DNA of 64,000 bases from positions 62,001-126,000 of the forward strand of contig WGMW01000040.1 of the NCBI GenBank assembly GCA_016124845.1, in the 5' to 3' direction. This DNA comes from Flavobacteriales bacterium. Its GTDB lineage: Bacteria; Bacteroidota; Bacteroidia; UBA10329. Positions 52,953 to 61,201 of the stretch are shown one piece after another. Both the position numbers and the translations under genes were made by a program. The stretch's first letter is position 1, and every line of letters starts with the position of its first letter. The notes beneath the pieces are model-generated. The model did no database searches, was not told the origin of the DNA, and worked only from the letters and a program-made list of their open reading frames with translations.

Positions 52953-54239
52953 TTACCCAACCTTCACCGCCTCCATCTTCTGGCGAATCTCACCGAGACA
53001 TAGATTGCCGATGCTTCCTTCGTGCGTGTGGTGCACATCTCGGTTAGGGATGAATGTTCCATCGTTCACTTCCTTGCCCAATTGCTGGTAAGCCGTACGG
53101 AATGGCATTCCTTTTAGCACGAGTTCGTGCAGCGATTCCACCGTGTACATGGCATCGTAGATCGGCAACCCAACAATTTCGGGCTGCACCTGAATATGTT
53201 TCAGCATGAAAGTGGCCACCTCCAAATTGTCGATGGTGGTCTCGATGCTTTCCATGAAAACACCTTTCAGCTCCTGAAAATCGCGGTGATAACCGCTGAT
53301 CAGATTGGCCGTGAGCAACGTCAAATGTGCCGTTGACTGCTGTACCGAATTGCACCGCGCACGCATCACCTCGAACACGTCTGGATTCTGCTTGTGCGGC
53401 ATAATGCTCGAACCTGTTGTCAGCTCCTTCGGGAACGTAACGAACCCGAAATTCTGGCTCATGTAAAGACAGATGTCATCCGCCAATTTGCCAAGCGTGG
53501 CCGAAATACTCGACAAAGCAAAACTTACCGATTTCTCCAATCTGCCGCGTGACATCTGTGCCCCCACGCTGTTGTAACGCATGGTTCCGAAACCAAGCAG
53601 TTCGGTTGTCAATGTGCGGTTGATAGGAAATGAGGAACCATAACCCGCAGCCGAACCCAACGGATTCTGATCAGCCATTCGGTAAGCCGCTTGCAGCAGC
53701 AACATATCATCCACCAAACTTTCGGCATACGCGCTGAACCACAGTCCGAAAGAGGACGGCATGGCCACTTGCATATGGGTGTAACCTGGCAACAGACGGT
53801 CTTTGTGTTCTTCGGCCAATTCCATCAATTGGTCAAATAGTGTGATGACGGCCTCGCTAATGACCACCACACTGGCCTTCGCATACAGGTGAAGATCCGT
53901 GAGCACTTGGTCGTTCCGCGAACGTGCGGTATGGATTTTACGCCCTGCGTCTCCGCATTTTTCGGTCAACAGGTGTTCCAGCCAACTGTGCACGTCTTCA
54001 AACTCCTCCCCGATGGTCAAACCCTCGGTTTCCCATTGCTTTTGCAGCTCATCCAGCGCAACAGCAAGCGCATTCCATTCCTCCGCAGAAAGCAACCCGA
54101 TCTGATGCAGCATGGCAGCGTGTGCGCGGTTGGTCTGAATATCGAACGGAATGAGGCGCTGATCCCATTCGCGGTCGTTGCCCACCGTGTAGCGCTCCAC
54201 CAAATTGTTTACCGTGTATCCTTTGTCCCAGAGTTTCAT
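52953..54239 (-). CDS. argH: Argininosuccinate lyase
   Basis: A 428-residue enzyme of the fumarase/aspartase superfamily that splits argininosuccinate to arginine and fumarate, the last step of arginine synthesis. Conserved blocks are HSWLEHLLTEKCGDAGRKIH, TARSRNDQV, HMQVAMPSSFGLWFSAY and the signature GSSIMPHKQNPDVFE with its catalytic Ser. It is the last gene of the arginine operon, overlapping argE by four bases. Confidence 0.95.
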   Translation of the reverse strand: MKLWDKGYTVNNLVERYTVGNDREWDQRLIPFDIQTNRAHAAMLHQIGLLSAEEWNALAVALDELQKQWETEGLTIGEEFEDVHSWLEHLLTEKCGDAGRKIHTARSRNDQVLTDLHLYAKASVVVISEAVITLFDQLMELAEEHKDRLLPGYTHMQVAMPSSFGLWFSAYAESLVDDMLLLQAAYRMADQNPLGSAAGYGSSFPINRTLTTELLGFGTMRYNSVGAQMSRGRLEKSVSFALSSISATLGKLADDICLYMSQNFGFVTFPKELTTGSSIMPHKQNPDVFEVMRARCNSVQQSTAHLTLLTANLISGYHRDFQELKGVFMESIETTIDNLEVATFMLKHIQVQPEIVGLPIYDAMYTVESLHELVLKGMPFRTAYQQLGKEVNDGTFIPNRDVHHTHEGSIGNLCLGEIRQKMEAVKVG

Positions 54240-55324
54240 TTCCGTGAGTTTAGCAGTTCGAAATAGGCGTCCAGCAGCTGTTGGTAGCCGCTCAATCCGT
54301 CATTCAATTCCTGTAAAGTGATGTATTCATCGGGGCGGTGCGAACGCTCGGTTTCGCCTGGTCCCATTTTAAATGATGGTCCGTTGAGCAACGCCTGATC
54401 GGAAAGCGTTGGCGAACCATAGGGTTTTCTTCCAAGCTCTATGGCGCATTTCACCACCGGATGATCGGCAGGAATGGCCGAAGACCGCAAGCGGAACGAA
54501 CGCGCGGTGAGCGTTGCCCGGAGTTCCGATTGAAGTCGTTCGAAAACCTCCTCAAGCGTGTAAAGCTCGTTCGCACGAACATCCAGCACGTAACTGCATT
54601 CCGCAGGAACCACGTTATGCTGAGAACCCGCGTTCACCTGCGTCATGGTCACTTTCACAGGGCCAAGAAATTCTGAAACACGCTCAAATGCCAATGTTTT
54701 CAGCTTCGCGATGTCATCCGCCAAATGGTAAATGGCCATGTCATCTTTGATGTGAGCCGCGTGTCCAGCCGTTCCCGTCAGCACAGCATCAATCACCAAA
54801 AGACCTTTTTCGGCAATGGCAGGCTGCATGCTTGTCGGTTCACCGACCATCGCCCAATCCCATTTTGGAAGGTCGTTGCGCAGCAATTGCATGCCTCCTG
54901 AACCTGAGTTTTCTTCCTCAGCCGAAATGGCCATGCACAGATTCACAGGCAGATTCTCCTTCGCATGAAAATGCAGAAACGTGTGCAGCAACGTGACCAA
55001 AGAAGCTCCTGCATCGTTGCTTCCCAACCCGAAGAGTTTTCCGTCCTCCACCGCACCATCAAAAGGATTGCGAGTGTAGGCCGCATTCGGTTTTACCGTG
55101 TCGATGTGCGAATTGAGCAGCACCGTAGGCAACGCTTCATTATAGTTCCGATTGACCATCCAGCGGTTGTTTCCCACGCTGTGGAACTCAATTCCGTGCG
55201 ACCGCAACCAAGCATCAACCACCGCCAACGCATCATTTTCCTGTCCAGAGAACGATGGTTTCTGGATGATCTCCGATAGCAGTTCGACCATGGAATTCAG
55301 ATATGGATGCTCCGAACAGCTCAT
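54236..55324 (-). CDS. argE: M20-family N-acylornithine deacylase
   Basis: A 362-residue zinc amidohydrolase that would release ornithine or citrulline from its N-acyl form. Motifs in order: NSHIDTVKP (His and Asp zinc ligands), GLGSNDAGAS, AISAEEENSGSGG (catalytic Glu pair), GTAGHAAH, and the final RSHRPDEYI with a zinc His. Its place between argB and argH, with a carbamoyltransferase that acts on acylornithine, suggests that it acts on N-acylcitrulline. It overlaps both neighbours by four bases. Confidence 0.88.
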   Translation of the reverse strand: MSCSEHPYLNSMVELLSEIIQKPSFSGQENDALAVVDAWLRSHGIEFHSVGNNRWMVNRNYNEALPTVLLNSHIDTVKPNAAYTRNPFDGAVEDGKLFGLGSNDAGASLVTLLHTFLHFHAKENLPVNLCMAISAEEENSGSGGMQLLRNDLPKWDWAMVGEPTSMQPAIAEKGLLVIDAVLTGTAGHAAHIKDDMAIYHLADDIAKLKTLAFERVSEFLGPVKVTMTQVNAGSQHNVVPAECSYVLDVRANELYTLEEVFERLQSELRATLTARSFRLRSSAIPADHPVVKCAIELGRKPYGSPTLSDQALLNGPSFKMGPGETERSHRPDEYITLQELNDGLSGYQQLLDAYFELLNSRK

Positions 55325-56088
55325 GCTTTGATCACTGTTCCGCCTGTTTGCCAGTTTTCGGGATGGGTGATTCTCACGGATGAAACACCTGCCTTTAACG
55401 CCTCAAACGCAGTATGAAGTTTAGGAAGCATTCCCGAATGAAACTGCCCCGAAGCTTTGCCTTGCTCATACATGGAATGCGTGAGTTCAGCAATCACAGA
55501 ACTGTCGTCCTTATCATCAGCCAGAACACCGGGTTTTTCAAACAGATATGTGAGTGAAACGTCAAATTCAGCCGTCATGGCTTTGGCCACACTGGCCGCG
55601 ATGGTGTCGGCATTCGTGTTCAACAATTGACCGTTTCCGTCATGTGTGATGGCGCAGCAAACGGGTGTTTGCCCATTTTTTAGAAGCTGCGAAAAGAAGG
55701 CTGCATTCACCGTTTTGACATCACCAACCCAACCGAAATCGTGCTCCAAAACAGGGCGTTTTTCTGATAGAATACTGGTTCCATCAGCTCCGCTGAGACC
55801 AATTGCATTTCGGCCGCAGGCCTGAAGCCAGGCCACCAGCTGTTTATTCATCAGCCCAGCGTAAACCATCACGGCAACTTCGAGGTCGAGGTCGGTGGTT
55901 ATTCTTCTACCATCCACCATTTTGGGTGTTCCGCCCAAGGCTTCGGTTACTTGCGAAGCACGGTTTCCTCCACCATGCACAAGTACAAGCGGATGCGAAA
56001 GTTCGGCCAATTCACGAAGCAAAGCCTTCCATCGTGGCGCATCTTCCAGCAGTTTTCCACCAGCTTTTATGACCAGCAGTTTATCCAC
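55321..56088 (-). CDS. argB: N-acetyl(acyl)glutamate kinase
   Basis: A 255-residue amino-acid-kinase-fold enzyme that phosphorylates N-acylglutamate. Motifs: VIKAGGKLLED (ATP loop), LVLVHGGGNRASQV (substrate glycines), VDGRRITTDLDLEVAVMVYA and the later LNTNADTIAASVAKA. Because the pathway's carbamoyltransferase resembles the succinylornithine type, the natural substrate could be N-succinyl- rather than N-acetylglutamate. It overlaps the carbamoyltransferase gene by eight bases. Confidence 0.92.
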   Translation of the reverse strand: MDKLLVIKAGGKLLEDAPRWKALLRELAELSHPLVLVHGGGNRASQVTEALGGTPKMVDGRRITTDLDLEVAVMVYAGLMNKQLVAWLQACGRNAIGLSGADGTSILSEKRPVLEHDFGWVGDVKTVNAAFFSQLLKNGQTPVCCAITHDGNGQLLNTNADTIAASVAKAMTAEFDVSLTYLFEKPGVLADDKDDSSVIAELTHSMYEQGKASGQFHSGMLPKLHTAFEALKAGVSSVRITHPENWQTGGTVIKA

Positions 56089-57028
56089 CTTGAAGCAATT
56101 TGTAGAGTGCCACTTGCGCGCTGATCACGCGATTTGCAGCCTGCATGATGACCAAACTCTGCGGACTGTCGAGCACGGAATCAGACACAACTACATTTCT
56201 GCGCACAGGCAAACAGTGCATGAAACCACCGTTGTCGGTCAGCGCCATTTGTTCTGAAGTGATCTGCCAATCGGTCAGTTCGGGTGCGGTTTTCCCGTAC
56301 GGTTCGTAAGCCGACCAGTTTTTCGCATACACGAAATCTGCTCCAGACAAAGCCGCCTTTTGATCATGTGTGACGGTTACGCCTCCCATGAATTCGGGCG
56401 CGAGTTCAAATCCTTCGGGATGCGTGACGACCAATTCCACATCGGCCTGTTTCATCCACTCCACAAACGAATTTGGAACCGCTTGCGGCAATCGCCTTGG
56501 ATGCGGAGCCCATGTGAGCACCACTTTCGGTCGTGGCTTGGTAGCCAAACTCCGAACCGTGATGAGATCCGCAAACGATTGCAACGGATGGCGTGTGGCA
56601 CTTTCCAAAGAAAGAATCGGAACCGTTGCGTACTTCTTGAACGCTTCCAACACAGGTTCGGCATAATCCGCAGCGCGGTCCTCCAAACTTGGAAACGAAC
56701 GCACCCCAATCACATCGCAGTATTGCGACAAAACCTGCGCGGCCTCTTTCACGTGCTCCTGCGCATTGCCGTTCATCACAGCTCCATCCTCCATTTCCAG
56801 CTGCCAGCCGTCCTTATCGAGGTTCATCACCATCACATTCATGCCCAGCTGATAAGCGGCTTTCTGCGTGCTCATCCGAGTTCTGAGACTCGGATTCAGG
56901 AACAGCAATCCAAGGATCTTTCCCTTTCCAGCTTCGCTGAAATGAAACGGATCTTTTTGGAACAGATCAGCCAGCGAAAGCCATTCGTTCATATCATCGA
57001 CATCATGTACAGATGTGAAATGCTTCAT
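56081..57028 (-). CDS. argF': N-acyl-L-ornithine carbamoyltransferase (SOTCase/AOTCase type)
   Basis: A 315-residue transcarbamylase that acts on N-acylated ornithine, as in Bacteroides fragilis. It has LNPSLRTRMSTQKAA (carbamoyl-phosphate site), TRHPLQSFADLITV (HPxQ), WAPHPRRLPQAVPNSF and HCLPVRRN. It aligns without gaps over its N-terminal part to my memory of the B. fragilis succinylornithine enzyme. The residue said to decide between succinyl (Pro90) and acetyl (Glu92 in Xanthomonas) substrates is Gln90 here (MNGNAQEHV), so specificity is open. It overlaps argD by four bases and argB by eight. Confidence 0.92.
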   Translation of the reverse strand: MKHFTSVHDVDDMNEWLSLADLFQKDPFHFSEAGKGKILGLLFLNPSLRTRMSTQKAAYQLGMNVMVMNLDKDGWQLEMEDGAVMNGNAQEHVKEAAQVLSQYCDVIGVRSFPSLEDRAADYAEPVLEAFKKYATVPILSLESATRHPLQSFADLITVRSLATKPRPKVVLTWAPHPRRLPQAVPNSFVEWMKQADVELVVTHPEGFELAPEFMGGVTVTHDQKAALSGADFVYAKNWSAYEPYGKTAPELTDWQITSEQMALTDNGGFMHCLPVRRNVVVSDSVLDSPQSLVIMQAANRVISAQVALYKLLQGG

Positions 57029-58152
57029 TGCAAACAGGATTTCAGTGCGGCAAAAAACCGCGTGAGTTCTTCTTTGGTGACCGAAAGCGGTGGCAGAATG
57101 CGCAGCACTTTCGGGTCGTTGGCGCTCCCCGTGAAAATGTGGTGTTCAAAAAGCAGCTTTTTGCGCAATTCGCCCACAGGGAAATCGAACGCCAGACCAA
57201 GCATCAAACCTCGTCCTTTCGGCTTTGCCGGAATTTGATGCGCGCTGATCTGCTGCACGAACCACTCACCCAACGCTTCAGCGTGAGCAACCAGTTTCTC
57301 TTCTTCGAGCACATCCAAAACAGCCGATCCGCCTGCACATGCCAAATGATTTCCACCGAACGTGGTTCCCAACATACCATGCTTTGCAGGGATTTCGGGA
57401 TGGATGAGAATGCCTCCGATCGGAAATCCATTGCCCATTCCTTTTGCCATGCTGATGATGTCGGGTTGGATGCCATGATGCTGAAACGCGAAGAATTTCC
57501 CCGTTCGACCATAGCCTGCCTGCACTTCATCGGCAATCAGTAGCGTTCCTGTTTCGCGGCACGCTTTTTCAACCTCTTGGATGAACGTGGTTTCGACCTG
57601 GTCGAGACCGCCCACGCCCTGCACACATTCTACAATCACAGCCGCCACATCTTGCGACTGCAACGCGTTTTTCACGGATCCCAGATCATTCAGCGGACAG
57701 AAAACAACTTCGTGCTGCGCATTGAGCGGAGCAACAATCGAGGGATTGTCGGTTGTCGCAACCGCAGCGGAAGTGCGTCCGTGAAAACTTCCTTTGAAAG
57801 CAAGAATCTTCTTCCGACCCGTTTGAAAAGAGGCGAGTTTCAGCGCATTCTCATTGGCCTCAGCTCCCGAATTGCACAGGAACAATTGATATCCTGTGCA
57901 ACCTGAAAGTGCTTCCAGCTTTGACGCAAGTTCCTCTTGCAGCGGATTCTTTACCGCGTTGGAATAGAATCCCAACTTGGCCACCTGCTGCTGAATGCGC
58001 TCCACGTAATGCGGATGCGAATGACCGATGGAGATCACGGCATGACCTCCATACAGATCTAAATATTCCTGTCCCTTGGAGTCGAAAACCTTGCAGCCTT
58101 CGGCCCGTTCGGGCGTGATATTGTAAAGCGGATAAACGTCAAAAAGTGGCAT
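57025..58152 (-). CDS. argD: N-acylornithine aminotransferase
   Basis: A 375-residue PLP-dependent class III aminotransferase that converts N-acylglutamate semialdehyde to N-acylornithine. Family blocks: YLDLYGGHAVISIGHSHP, FLCNSGAEANENALKLA, FKGSFHGRTSAAVATT, LIADEVQAGYGRTG and SMAKGMGNGFPIGG, whose Lys binds PLP. It shares one base with the argC stop (TGATG) and overlaps the carbamoyltransferase gene by four bases. Confidence 0.94.
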   Translation of the reverse strand: MPLFDVYPLYNITPERAEGCKVFDSKGQEYLDLYGGHAVISIGHSHPHYVERIQQQVAKLGFYSNAVKNPLQEELASKLEALSGCTGYQLFLCNSGAEANENALKLASFQTGRKKILAFKGSFHGRTSAAVATTDNPSIVAPLNAQHEVVFCPLNDLGSVKNALQSQDVAAVIVECVQGVGGLDQVETTFIQEVEKACRETGTLLIADEVQAGYGRTGKFFAFQHHGIQPDIISMAKGMGNGFPIGGILIHPEIPAKHGMLGTTFGGNHLACAGGSAVLDVLEEEKLVAHAEALGEWFVQQISAHQIPAKPKGRGLMLGLAFDFPVGELRKKLLFEHHIFTGSANDPKVLRILPPLSVTKEELTRFFAALKSCLQ

Positions 58153-59120
58153 CAGAAAGCAATTGAGCGAAGGTTCAACCCTGTGGTTTCGGCCAACCCG
58201 AAAATGCGGTTCATGTTCTGAACTGCTTGGCCTGCCGCACCTTTCAAAAGGTTATCGATGATGCTGGTAACCAGCAGTTTGCCATCAATGACCTGAACTT
58301 GAATCAAGCAATAATTGGTACCGACAACTTGTTTCAATTCGATGGTTTCGTCCGAAACATGAACGAACGGTTTGTCGCGGTAGAAATCCTGGTAAAGTTT
58401 CTTTGCTTCCACCTCATTCAAACTTGTTGCCGAGTAAACGCTGGCGAAAATGCCACGGGCAAAATCGCCTTTCACCGGTAGAAATGACACTTCGGGCAAT
58501 TCGGCCTGACCAGCATTCTGCCACGTCTCCCCTATCTCTGCCAAATGCTGATGCGAGAACGGTTTGTAAATGCTCAGGTTATTGAGCCTGCGGCTGAAGT
58601 GCGAGTAATCGTTGAGCGATGCGCCCGCGCCTGTCGAACCCGTGATGGCGTGAACGTGAATGGAATCTGTGAGCAAACCTTCGGAAGCCATCGGCAAAAG
58701 TGCCAACTCAATGGCCGTGGCGAAACAGCCCGGATTGGCAATATTCATTCCCGTTTCCTGAGGAAGTTCAGCCAAACCGTACGTGAATTCACGTTCACCG
58801 AACTGCGAATCTTGCTTCAGGCGGAAATCGCTTCCGAGGTCGATGACACTTACTTCTTTCGGCAGCGGATGTTCCTCCAAAAACTTCCGAGAAAGTCCGT
58901 GACCCAAACACAGAAAAACCACATTCACATCGGTTGAAACCTTATCGGTGAATCGCCATTCCGGTTGGTAAAACAGATCGCGGTGTACAGAAGAAACCGC
59001 TTCGCCCGGCTTCGAATGACTGTAGGTGAACGCCACCTCCACTTCGGGATGATTTCCCAGAATTCGGAGCAGTTCGCCTGCCACGTATCCTGTTCCGCCC
59101 GCTATGCCAACTTTGATCAT
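58152..59120 (-). CDS. argC: N-acetyl(acyl)-gamma-glutamyl-phosphate reductase
   Basis: A 322-residue NADPH enzyme that reduces acylglutamyl phosphate to the semialdehyde. ATG 59120 gives MIKVGIAGGTGYVAGELLRI, the usual start; a longer frame from 59213 lies inside argG. NPGCFATAIELALLP carries the active-site Cys, and HAITGSTGAGASLNDYSHF and HQHLAEI are conserved. It overlaps argG by four bases. Confidence 0.95.
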   Translation of the reverse strand: MIKVGIAGGTGYVAGELLRILGNHPEVEVAFTYSHSKPGEAVSSVHRDLFYQPEWRFTDKVSTDVNVVFLCLGHGLSRKFLEEHPLPKEVSVIDLGSDFRLKQDSQFGEREFTYGLAELPQETGMNIANPGCFATAIELALLPMASEGLLTDSIHVHAITGSTGAGASLNDYSHFSRRLNNLSIYKPFSHQHLAEIGETWQNAGQAELPEVSFLPVKGDFARGIFASVYSATSLNEVEAKKLYQDFYRDKPFVHVSDETIELKQVVGTNYCLIQVQVIDGKLLVTSIIDNLLKGAAGQAVQNMNRIFGLAETTGLNLRSIAF

Positions 59121-60322
59121 CCTTCTTTGCTGTTGTCCTGTTGAACGGTTCGGTGCAAACGCAACGAAGTGCTGATCACCTTCGTGAATCCTTTCACATC
59201 CTCGCCCGTCCACTTTTCGTTCATTTCGCCATACGTCCCGAAGCTGCTTTGCATCAGATCGAAAGACGAACGGATGCCGTCAACTGAGAATCGATACGGC
59301 AAAAGCGTCACGATCACTTCGCCTGTCACGGTCTTCTGCGTGTCTTCCAAGAACGTCTCAATGTTGCGCATCACAGGCTCAAAGTACTGACTTTCGTGCA
59401 GGAACATTCCGTACCAATCGCCCAACTGCTGTTTCCAATGCAGTTGCCATTTGCTCAGTGTGTGCTTCTCCAAAAGATGGTGCGCCTTGATGATGACCAA
59501 CGGTGCAGCCGCCTCGAAACCAACACGACCTTTGATGCCGATAATGGTATCTCCAACATGCACATCGCGGCCAATGCCATAACCAGCCGCCATTTCCTCC
59601 AGCGCATTGATGGCTGAGACCGGATCCATTTCGGTTCCGTTCAATCCTGTCAATTGCCCTTCGGTGAATTGCAGCGTAACCTCCAGCGGTTCGGTTTTGG
59701 TAACGGGCGTTGGATAGGCCGATTCTGGCAATGGTTTGTCCGAAGTGAGCGTTTCCGCGCCACCCACACTCGTTCCCCATAAACCTTTATTGATGGAATA
59801 CTGCGCTTTGGTCCAATCGAGTTCGATGCCAGCTTCTTTCAAGTAATCGATCTCCTGTTGGCGACTCAATTTCAGATCACGGATCGGAGTGATGATCTCG
59901 GTCCCAGGCAACAAAAGCCCGAAAGCAAGATCGAAACGCACTTGGTCGTTTCCTGCGCCTGTACTCCCGTGCGCAATCGCATCGGCATTGATAGATGCCG
60001 CAAATTCTGCCAACGCAATGGCCTGATAAACGCGCTCGGCACTTACCGACAACGGATAGGTGTTGTTCTTGAGCACGTTTCCGTAGATCAGATATCGGAT
60101 GATGCGCTGATAGTAATCGTTGGTGCGTTCCAACACGCGGAATGAATCAACTCCTGCCAAGTCTGCGCGCTTTTCGATGCGTGTTTTCTCCTCTTCGGAA
60201 ATACCACCAGTATCAACCAATGCGGCATGCACTTCCATGCCTTTTTCAATGGTCAAGTACTTGGCGCAGAAAGTGGTGTCCAAACCACCGCTGAACGCCA
60301 GTACGACTTTCTTCTTTGTCAT
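59117..60322 (-). CDS. argG: Argininosuccinate synthase
   Basis: A 401-residue ATP-dependent ligase that joins citrulline and aspartate. The ATP motif VVLAFSGGLDTTFCAKYL is at the N-terminus, and HGSTGAGNDQVRFDLAF, SINKGLWGTSVGGAETL and GIKGRVGFEAAA follow. The argininosuccinate synthase fold is full length. It overlaps the upstream GNAT gene by four bases. Confidence 0.96.
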   Translation of the reverse strand: MTKKKVVLAFSGGLDTTFCAKYLTIEKGMEVHAALVDTGGISEEEKTRIEKRADLAGVDSFRVLERTNDYYQRIIRYLIYGNVLKNNTYPLSVSAERVYQAIALAEFAASINADAIAHGSTGAGNDQVRFDLAFGLLLPGTEIITPIRDLKLSRQQEIDYLKEAGIELDWTKAQYSINKGLWGTSVGGAETLTSDKPLPESAYPTPVTKTEPLEVTLQFTEGQLTGLNGTEMDPVSAINALEEMAAGYGIGRDVHVGDTIIGIKGRVGFEAAAPLVIIKAHHLLEKHTLSKWQLHWKQQLGDWYGMFLHESQYFEPVMRNIETFLEDTQKTVTGEVIVTLLPYRFSVDGIRSSFDLMQSSFGTYGEMNEKWTGEDVKGFTKVISTSLRLHRTVQQDNSKEG

Positions 60323-60999
60323 TTGCTTTCAGTTTGTGTTGCCTGTTTCAACGCAGGCTTAAGTGATGGAAATGATGGGATGAGATTCTGAAGTCGTTTT
60401 CCTCGTTCCACCATGAATTTCTTGAAACCTGCCCAACGTTGAACCTTGGTTTCTACCACAGGTTGACTTACCGTTTTTTCCATGTACATCATACCTGTGC
60501 ACATACACATGGTGCGGTTCGTTCGCTGCAATACGTCAAAGTTCACACAGCTTTGGCAGCCTTTCCAAAATGCCTCATCCTGAGTGAGTTCTGAGAACGT
60601 GACAGGTTTGTAGCCGAGGTCTGAATTGATCTTCATCACCGCCAAACTGGTAGTAATTCCGAACAACTTTGCCTCGGGGAACATTTCTCGCGATAGCTTG
60701 AAAATGGCCGATTTGATCGCTCTTGCCAAACCTGTTTTACGATAATCGGGATGAACGATGAGCCCTGAATTGGCGACATACTTCTTGTCTTCCCAACTTT
60801 CAATGTAGCAAAAGCCGACCACGGAATCGCCATTCAAAGCAATGACCGCCTTCCCTTCAGACATCTTTTTCTGAACATATTCGGGTTCGCGTTTGGCAAT
60901 ACCTGTTCCTCTGACCTTGGCGGCCTCTTCCATCATTTGGCAGATGGTGAATGCAAATGGATGATGGCTAATGTCAGCCACCTTGACTTCATAATTCAT
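60319..60999 (-). CDS. GNAT N-acyltransferase heading the arginine operon (argA-like candidate)
   Basis: A 226-residue GNAT-fold protein starting MNYEVKVADISHH at ATG 60999; a start at 61050 adds 17 residues upstream of the recognisable domain. The acyl-CoA site is LIVHPDYRKTGLARAI (RxxGxA), preceded by VIALNGDSVVGFCYIE. A Cys cluster CxxC-x13-CxC (Cys148, Cys151, Cys165, Cys167) could bind metal. As first gene of a complete arginine operon that otherwise lacks an N-acylglutamate synthase, it is the best candidate for that step (acetyl- or succinyl-CoA as donor); this is inferred from context. Confidence 0.82.
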   Translation of the reverse strand: MNYEVKVADISHHPFAFTICQMMEEAAKVRGTGIAKREPEYVQKKMSEGKAVIALNGDSVVGFCYIESWEDKKYVANSGLIVHPDYRKTGLARAIKSAIFKLSREMFPEAKLFGITTSLAVMKINSDLGYKPVTFSELTQDEAFWKGCQSCVNFDVLQRTNRTMCMCTGMMYMEKTVSQPVVETKVQRWAGFKKFMVERGKRLQNLIPSFPSLKPALKQATQTESK

Positions 61000-61069
61000 G
61001 AAATACGAATGATTGTTTTGTTCAATTGGTGGAATGCGCACTGACCTCAACGGTCCAAGGAAGTGCGAC

Positions 61070-61189
61070 TCAGACCCTCAGAATGAAAAAGCGCGGGCAC
61101 GCGTTCTGCCGCCTCGCGCAAATGCCAGCTTCGCACTCATGAAGAAGTGCCAGAAACTGAATACCGTTCATATTGAACTCGTTTTGCAT
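61070..61189 (-). CDS. Possible leader peptide of the arginine operon
   Basis: A 39-codon frame that starts just after a TAATTTTG promoter box: MQNEFNMNGIQFLALLHECE, then AGICARRQNACPRFFILRV. Four arginines occur, two adjacent (AGG CGG at about codons 26-27). The 5' arm of a GC-rich terminator overlaps exactly these codons. A ribosome stalled there for lack of arginyl-tRNA would mask that arm and allow read-through into the operon. The enrichment in Arg is moderate, so the frame could be fortuitous. Confidence 0.5.
   Translation of the reverse strand: MQNEFNMNGIQFLALLHECEAGICARRQNACPRFFILRV
61086..61119 (-). terminator. Attenuator-type terminator in the arginine operon leader
   Basis: On the minus strand GCGCG (61119-61115) pairs with CGCGC (61095-61091) and GGC (61113-61111) with GCC (61098-61096), with one bulged A and a 12-base loop, then TTTTT (61090-61086). 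It lies between the leader promoter and the first structural gene, so unless suppressed it would stop transcription of the operon. Confidence 0.65.
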
Positions 61190-61193
61190 GGCG

Positions 61194-61201
61194 CAAAATT
61201 A
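61194..61201 (-). promoter_or_regulatory. -7 box (TAATTTTG) for the arginine operon
   Basis: An exact TAnnTTTG match on the minus strand, four bases before the leader frame ATG and about 195 bases before the first structural gene. An imperfect dyad ATGTTC-N8-GAACAT lies just upstream (61206-61225) and may be an operator. Confidence 0.55.

Follow-up and report, generated by a model that had tools for sequence, protein, structure and literature searches.

A putative arginine-codon leader peptide precedes the GNAT-argG operon class of Bacteroidia

Comparison of upstream regions supports a putative leader peptide, with arginine codons close to its stop, ahead of a class of arginine operons that begins with genes for a GNAT acetyltransferase and argininosuccinate synthase. 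Across the class Bacteroidia, the candidate ORF is specifically enriched in Arg codons, carries Arg at its stop, lies next to a promoter-like box in about a quarter of cases, is followed by structured RNA and is nearly exclusive with the repressor ArgR. The arrangement is best explained by a ribosome that stalls on the terminal Arg codons and holds the post-stop RNA out of an off-state, thereby controlling the operon, and we consider this mechanism probable.

A short frame at the head of the arginine operon

The window is the whole stretch of 64,000 nucleotides that was analysed, from a contig of a Flavobacteriales bacterium. On its minus strand, a short frame lies between a box TAATTTTG and the first structural gene, GNAT.

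61194..61201, minus strand: Bacteroidota-type -7 promoter box TAATTTTG (motif TANNTTTG), by sequence
61070..61189, minus strand: leader ORF of 39 codons plus TGA (61072-61070), encoding MQNEFNMNGIQFLALLHECEAGICARRQNACPRFFILRV and stop, by sequence and ORF list
61070..61078, minus strand: conserved core AGG GTC TGA (Arg-Val-stop), probably the decisive site of stalling and the longest exact block that the window shares with both congeners
60319..60999, minus strand: first operon gene, GNAT acetyltransferase (Pfam PF00583, PF13508)
59117..60322, minus strand: argG, argininosuccinate synthase (Pfam PF00764, PF20979)
52953..59120, minus strand: argC-, argD-, argF'- (OTCace), argB-, argE/M20- and argH-type genes, in this order and end to end (Pfam and ORFs)

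By Pfam, the operon order is GNAT-argG-argC-argD-argF'-argB-argE-argH, and the position of the GNAT product suggests an N-acetylglutamate synthase-like role. The box is separated from the leader ATG (61189) by only 4 nt, CGCC, and no clear -33 TTG was found at the usual spacing from it. The frame contains four Arg codons, all among its last 14 codons: AGG at codon 26, CGG at codon 27, CGC at codon 33 and AGG at codon 38. It ends in ILRV and the stop, with the last Arg at codon 38 of 39. A second overlapping Arg-rich frame, MSAKLAFARGGRTRARAFSF followed by a stop, occupies 61140-61078 of the window on the minus strand; it is not conserved and is probably a by-product of the GC-rich sequence.

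In the genus of the window, argG is kept in only 3 of 9 genomes, those of the window and of two congeners (leaders L002 and L003). The other six, all among G001-G008, lack both argG and GNAT, and three of them are less than 90% complete; the arginine operon thus appears to be accessory or often lost in this genus. The longest block common to the window leader and both congeners is AGGGTCTGA, which spells AGG-GTC-TGA (Arg-Val-stop). With L003 this block extends to 16 identical nucleotides, a length reached by 0 of 200 shuffles. The 9-base match with L002 is not significant alone (26 of 200 shuffles), yet it coincides with the block found at the stop. Outside the stop region, the three leaders could not be aligned by MAFFT.

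The arginine leader family across Bacteroidia

DNA upstream of GNAT homologues was collected from 21 relatives, 62 database genomes and roughly 100 more genomes of the class. The leader ORFs were picked for Arg content, so individual calls may be wrong, and significance rests on dinucleotide shuffles to which the same ORF selection was applied. In 143 distinct leaders, the last 14 residues of the best ORF hold a mean of 2.92 Arg compared with 1.09 in the shuffles (z 26), and at least four Arg are present in 38% of leaders vs 2% of shuffles. The next most enriched residue in this test is Pro (z 9), with all others at or below 4.3, and the same count on the reverse strand gives a mean of 1.35 Arg. 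The initial annotation of this DNA had proposed an arginine leader peptide, and the orthologous leaders bear this out in that they carry a short frame with Arg codons. Arg-rich tails are also evident by eye, for example VRPIFYIRR, RRRP, FRPRLRA, ARRPFSRRPARV, SRRRVFIPRV and PRRRPGC, each directly before the stop.

The position of the Arg codons is as characteristic as their number. Of 107 leaders, 81 have their last Arg at the final or penultimate codon; the penultimate form is the commonest (61 of 107) and is that of the window frame. A penultimate last Arg occurs in 54% of leaders vs 19% of shuffles under the same selection. All six Arg codons occur in the leaders, most often AGG, CGA and CGC, with no single rare codon standing out, and codon rarity was rejected as the signal. 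Of 110 leader ORFs, 25 have a TANNTTTG box at most 25 nt before an in-frame ATG, vs 0.55% of control ATGs. The spacing from box to ATG is 4-10 nt in most of these 25, suggesting that the leader starts near the 5' end of the transcript.

Of 33 families of Bacteroidia sampled, at least 22 have the leader. The arrangement recurs in the cultured genera Mucilaginibacter, Lewinella, Phaeodactylibacter and Taibaiella, and outside Bacteroidia in Fodinibius. About a third of the fetched loci without ArgR have no such leader by the criteria used, in part perhaps because GNAT is not the first gene there or because the frame has only one or two Arg. In one genus, six loci (L139, L150, L153, L157, L158 and L174) encode the Arg-poor peptide SRTNRPxTSPEVRML 220-245 nt upstream of GNAT; its sequence is more conserved than those of the other leaders.

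Near-exclusion with ArgR

Of 396 genomes of the class, 19 encode ArgR (PF02863), usually next to the arginine operon; PF02863 was not found in the genome of the window (G000). Among the fetched loci, a leader is present in 73 of the 116 that lack ArgR and in 1 of the 7 that have it. In the only case with both, the ArgR match is marginal (25.0 bits), has an internal stop and lies far from the operon. Regions preceding ArgR genes show a weak Arg signal. The leader probably allows an arginine-starved ribosome to switch the arginine operon on where the repressor is missing.

RNA structure after the leader stop

In the window, a hairpin named H2 starts 2 nt after the leader stop.

61037..61067, minus strand: post-stop hairpin H2, CGCACU [UCCUUG] GACC GUUGA GGUC AGUGCG, -11.8 kcal/mol, with no U-tract after it

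H2 is modest by comparison with shuffles (z -1.22). Hairpins start 2-4 nt 3' of the stop in the window and both congeners, and all three share one plan: an outer stem, a 5' bulge of 6-7 nt, an inner stem and no 3' bulge, with different bases. This plan was first spotted in two of the three leaders tested, and each of the three hairpins is equalled by 22-34 of 1000 shuffles. The lack of a U-tract 3' of H2 indicates that the off-state in the window would not be an intrinsic terminator. L002 (from G008) contains a terminator-like hairpin, ATTACGAT...ATCGTAAT plus TCTTTTTCTC, some 10 nt upstream of the start of GNAT; it is absent in the window.

In the family as a whole, the 52 nt after the stop are the most structured part of the leader, with a mean z of -1.21 relative to shuffles compared with -0.41 for the ORF and -0.57 for the stop region. 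Terminator-like sites lie 3' of the stop in 35% of leaders vs 12% of shuffles at -8 kcal/mol; they are enriched but not universal. A hairpin with a UAYGY-like pentaloop was detected by strict rules in 20 of 110 leaders and in 3% of shuffles. A set of 21 leaders from several families, including L028, L090, L151, L154, L161 and L173, carries it 10-35 nt after the leader stop, usually without a U-tract. Its stem shows 93% pairing and a covariation of 0.967 vs 0.246 in shuffles (reached by 0 of 500) and at most 0.213 when slid, in a set that was collected by hand and partly selected because bases beside the loop paired. The three outermost pairs, mostly free of this selection, are formed in 19-20 of the 21. 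A pseudoknot or kissing contact of the UAYGY loop with GCGUA near the stop was seen by eye in L015, L130 and L175; it is not present in most leaders and was rejected.

In five Flavobacteriaceae-like leaders (L098, L100, L108, L109 and L115), a UAGGUGAGUCC loop 3' of the leader stop is invariant and its stem varies. Seven Flavobacteriaceae genomes gave six matches to UAGGUGAGUCC in arg leaders and two elsewhere; apart from the latter, it occurs once per genome, before the arginine operon. The two outside matches are not leader-like, and UAGGUGAGUCC was rejected as a general element.

A proposed mechanism and its alternatives

Codons that match the product of the operon, a promoter close by and the absence of a repressor are together best read as ribosome-mediated attenuation. 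The transcript is predicted to begin a few bases 5' of the leader ATG, which would allow ribosomes to load immediately. Under a shortage of charged tRNA-Arg, uncharged tRNA-Arg would cause the ribosome to stall at the Arg codons closing the peptide, chiefly at the one two codons before the stop. Because these codons abut the stop, a stalled ribosome would have both the stop region and the base of the following hairpin (H2 in the window) within its footprint, whereas a terminating ribosome would leave. When arginine is plentiful, the ribosome would terminate and depart, and the post-stop RNA could fold into the off-state and lower expression of the operon. It is at the stop that the stalled and the departing ribosome differ, which makes the post-stop RNA the likely off-state. 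Control would presumably act on transcription rather than translation, most likely through premature termination, with some clades using an intrinsic terminator and others perhaps Rho. The route (intrinsic terminator, Rho or decay) probably differs between clades. A narrower form of the proposal, in which the stalled ribosome controls the conserved, mostly non-terminator hairpin (UAYGY, or UAGGUGAGUCC in Flavobacteriaceae) that works by a so far undescribed off-switch, for example a Rho entry or pause element, in a widespread alternative to ArgR, is put forward as a tentative possibility.

Alternative structures as in trp leaders are also conceivable, although we regard them as doubtful. Here, a ribosome stalled at upstream Arg codons would let a hairpin near the stop compete with a downstream terminator. 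In many leaders, Arg codons are scattered along the final 10-12 codons and a small hairpin surrounds the stop (e.g., CGCCC-CTA-GGGCG), and the window segments GCACUU, GAGUGCG, CGCACU and AGUGCG allow two pairings. However, this segment set was not found in the congeners, no conserved alternative pairing emerged from the comparison, and the hairpin at the stop averages only z -0.57.

The initial annotation had placed the attenuator inside the frame, in a hairpin that a ribosome stalled at AGG CGG would occlude.

61091..61119, minus strand: GC-rich hairpin GCGCGAGGCGGCAGAACGCGTGCCCGCGC within the leader ORF, -16.7 kcal/mol, followed by TTTTT at 61090-61086
61109..61114, minus strand: AGG CGG, codons 26-27 (AGG 61114-61112, CGG 61111-61109), not conserved in the congeners

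The promoter-like box, the 39-codon frame, the hairpin with its five T's and the AGG CGG pair in its 5' arm were all confirmed at their positions. The hairpin is strong and is one of only six at or below -14 kcal/mol that adjoin five T's on both strands of the 64 kb; by our estimate, a leader of this size would contain one by chance in about 1% of cases. Taken in its entirety, the window leader is no more stably folded than shuffles (z -0.51), and a simple terminator scan did not list the hairpin and gave an overall number of sites close to chance. Neither the hairpin with its T-run nor the AGG CGG pair is found in the two congeners, though both keep Arg-Val-stop, and across the family the ORF region is barely more structured than shuffles. 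Moreover, a coupled ribosome translating at its normal pace would cover the hairpin just as a stalled one does, so that plentiful arginine would not cause termination. We therefore consider it unlikely that this hairpin is the attenuator. What recurs in related leaders is the short frame with terminal Arg codons, its stop and a hairpin shortly 3' of it, and the in-frame terminator is missing from both congeners. Conservation favours the Arg codon that precedes the stop, and occlusion by a stalled ribosome is possible at the post-stop structure.

In another reading, tRNA charging is not what is sensed: as with TnaC/SpeFL or the fungal arginine attenuator peptide, the nascent chain in the exit tunnel would itself respond to free arginine. 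Arrest peptides of this kind act at the stop codon, where the Arg lies here, and some clades retain a peptide motif (SPEVRM, VRPIFYIRR). Across families, however, only the Arg enrichment and some Pro are shared and no peptide sequence is, so that direct sensing seems improbable. It is very unlikely that the window frame is a chance ORF containing Arg codons, in view of its promoter spacing, its penultimate Arg and the exact 16-nt congener match at its stop, even though the second overlapping frame indicates that local GC-rich sequence can mimic the signal.

If stalling at the terminal Arg codons does control the post-stop RNA, it would explain control of the arginine operon in most Bacteroidia that have the operon without ArgR. 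It would also make ribosome-mediated attenuation a main form of amino-acid control in a phylum that seldom uses Shine-Dalgarno pairing. The leaders add a family of small ORFs overlooked by annotation pipelines, and their recurrence in cultured genera makes the proposal directly testable.

Comparison with known systems

In the pyrBI and tnaC leaders of E. coli, the ribosome keeps a terminator or a Rho site inactive without an antiterminator. Their signal is UTP or tryptophan, unlike tRNA-Arg charging, and we do not claim membership in this group for the leader described here. With lax thresholds, Rfam gave no relevant match, T-box included, for the window leader and 14 related loci. Bacteroid-trp (RF01692) was found in 0 of 59 related genomes, with control matches in Bacteroides. 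The initial annotation had called such control little described; in agreement with this, we found no Rfam family for the arginine leader class and no account of it for the phylum in the open-access literature that the search covered. As far as the main text goes, a study of structured 5' regions in Flavobacterium psychrophilum, of the same phylum, gives unspecified clues to leader peptides of amino-acid operons and does not name arginine in that connection (PMC9723704).

The family resembles the amino-acid attenuators of Enterobacteria (trp, his and leu), those of actinobacteria (PMC1262725) and RF01692 in having a promoter-proximal ORF with codons for the end product before the operon. It differs from them in that the amino acid is arginine, the Arg codons abut the stop and most clades have no canonical terminator. 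The nearest functional relatives are orf34 of Salmonella speF and rbfL of Staphylococcus aureus. In orf34, leader Arg codons sense arginine through ribosome pausing, with involvement of a post-stop hairpin and Rho (PMC6386406). The two arrangements share Arg codons in a leader ORF and a hairpin downstream of the stop, but orf34 controls ornithine decarboxylase, the Arg codons that decide its response (12-13) are distant from the stop, and its stop-adjacent Arg is dispensable (PMC6386406). In rbfL, ribosomes pause within a small upstream ORF when arginine is limiting, as proposed here; there, however, the paused ribosome covers the rbf ribosome-binding site and represses, in another gene and another phylum (PMC13009471).
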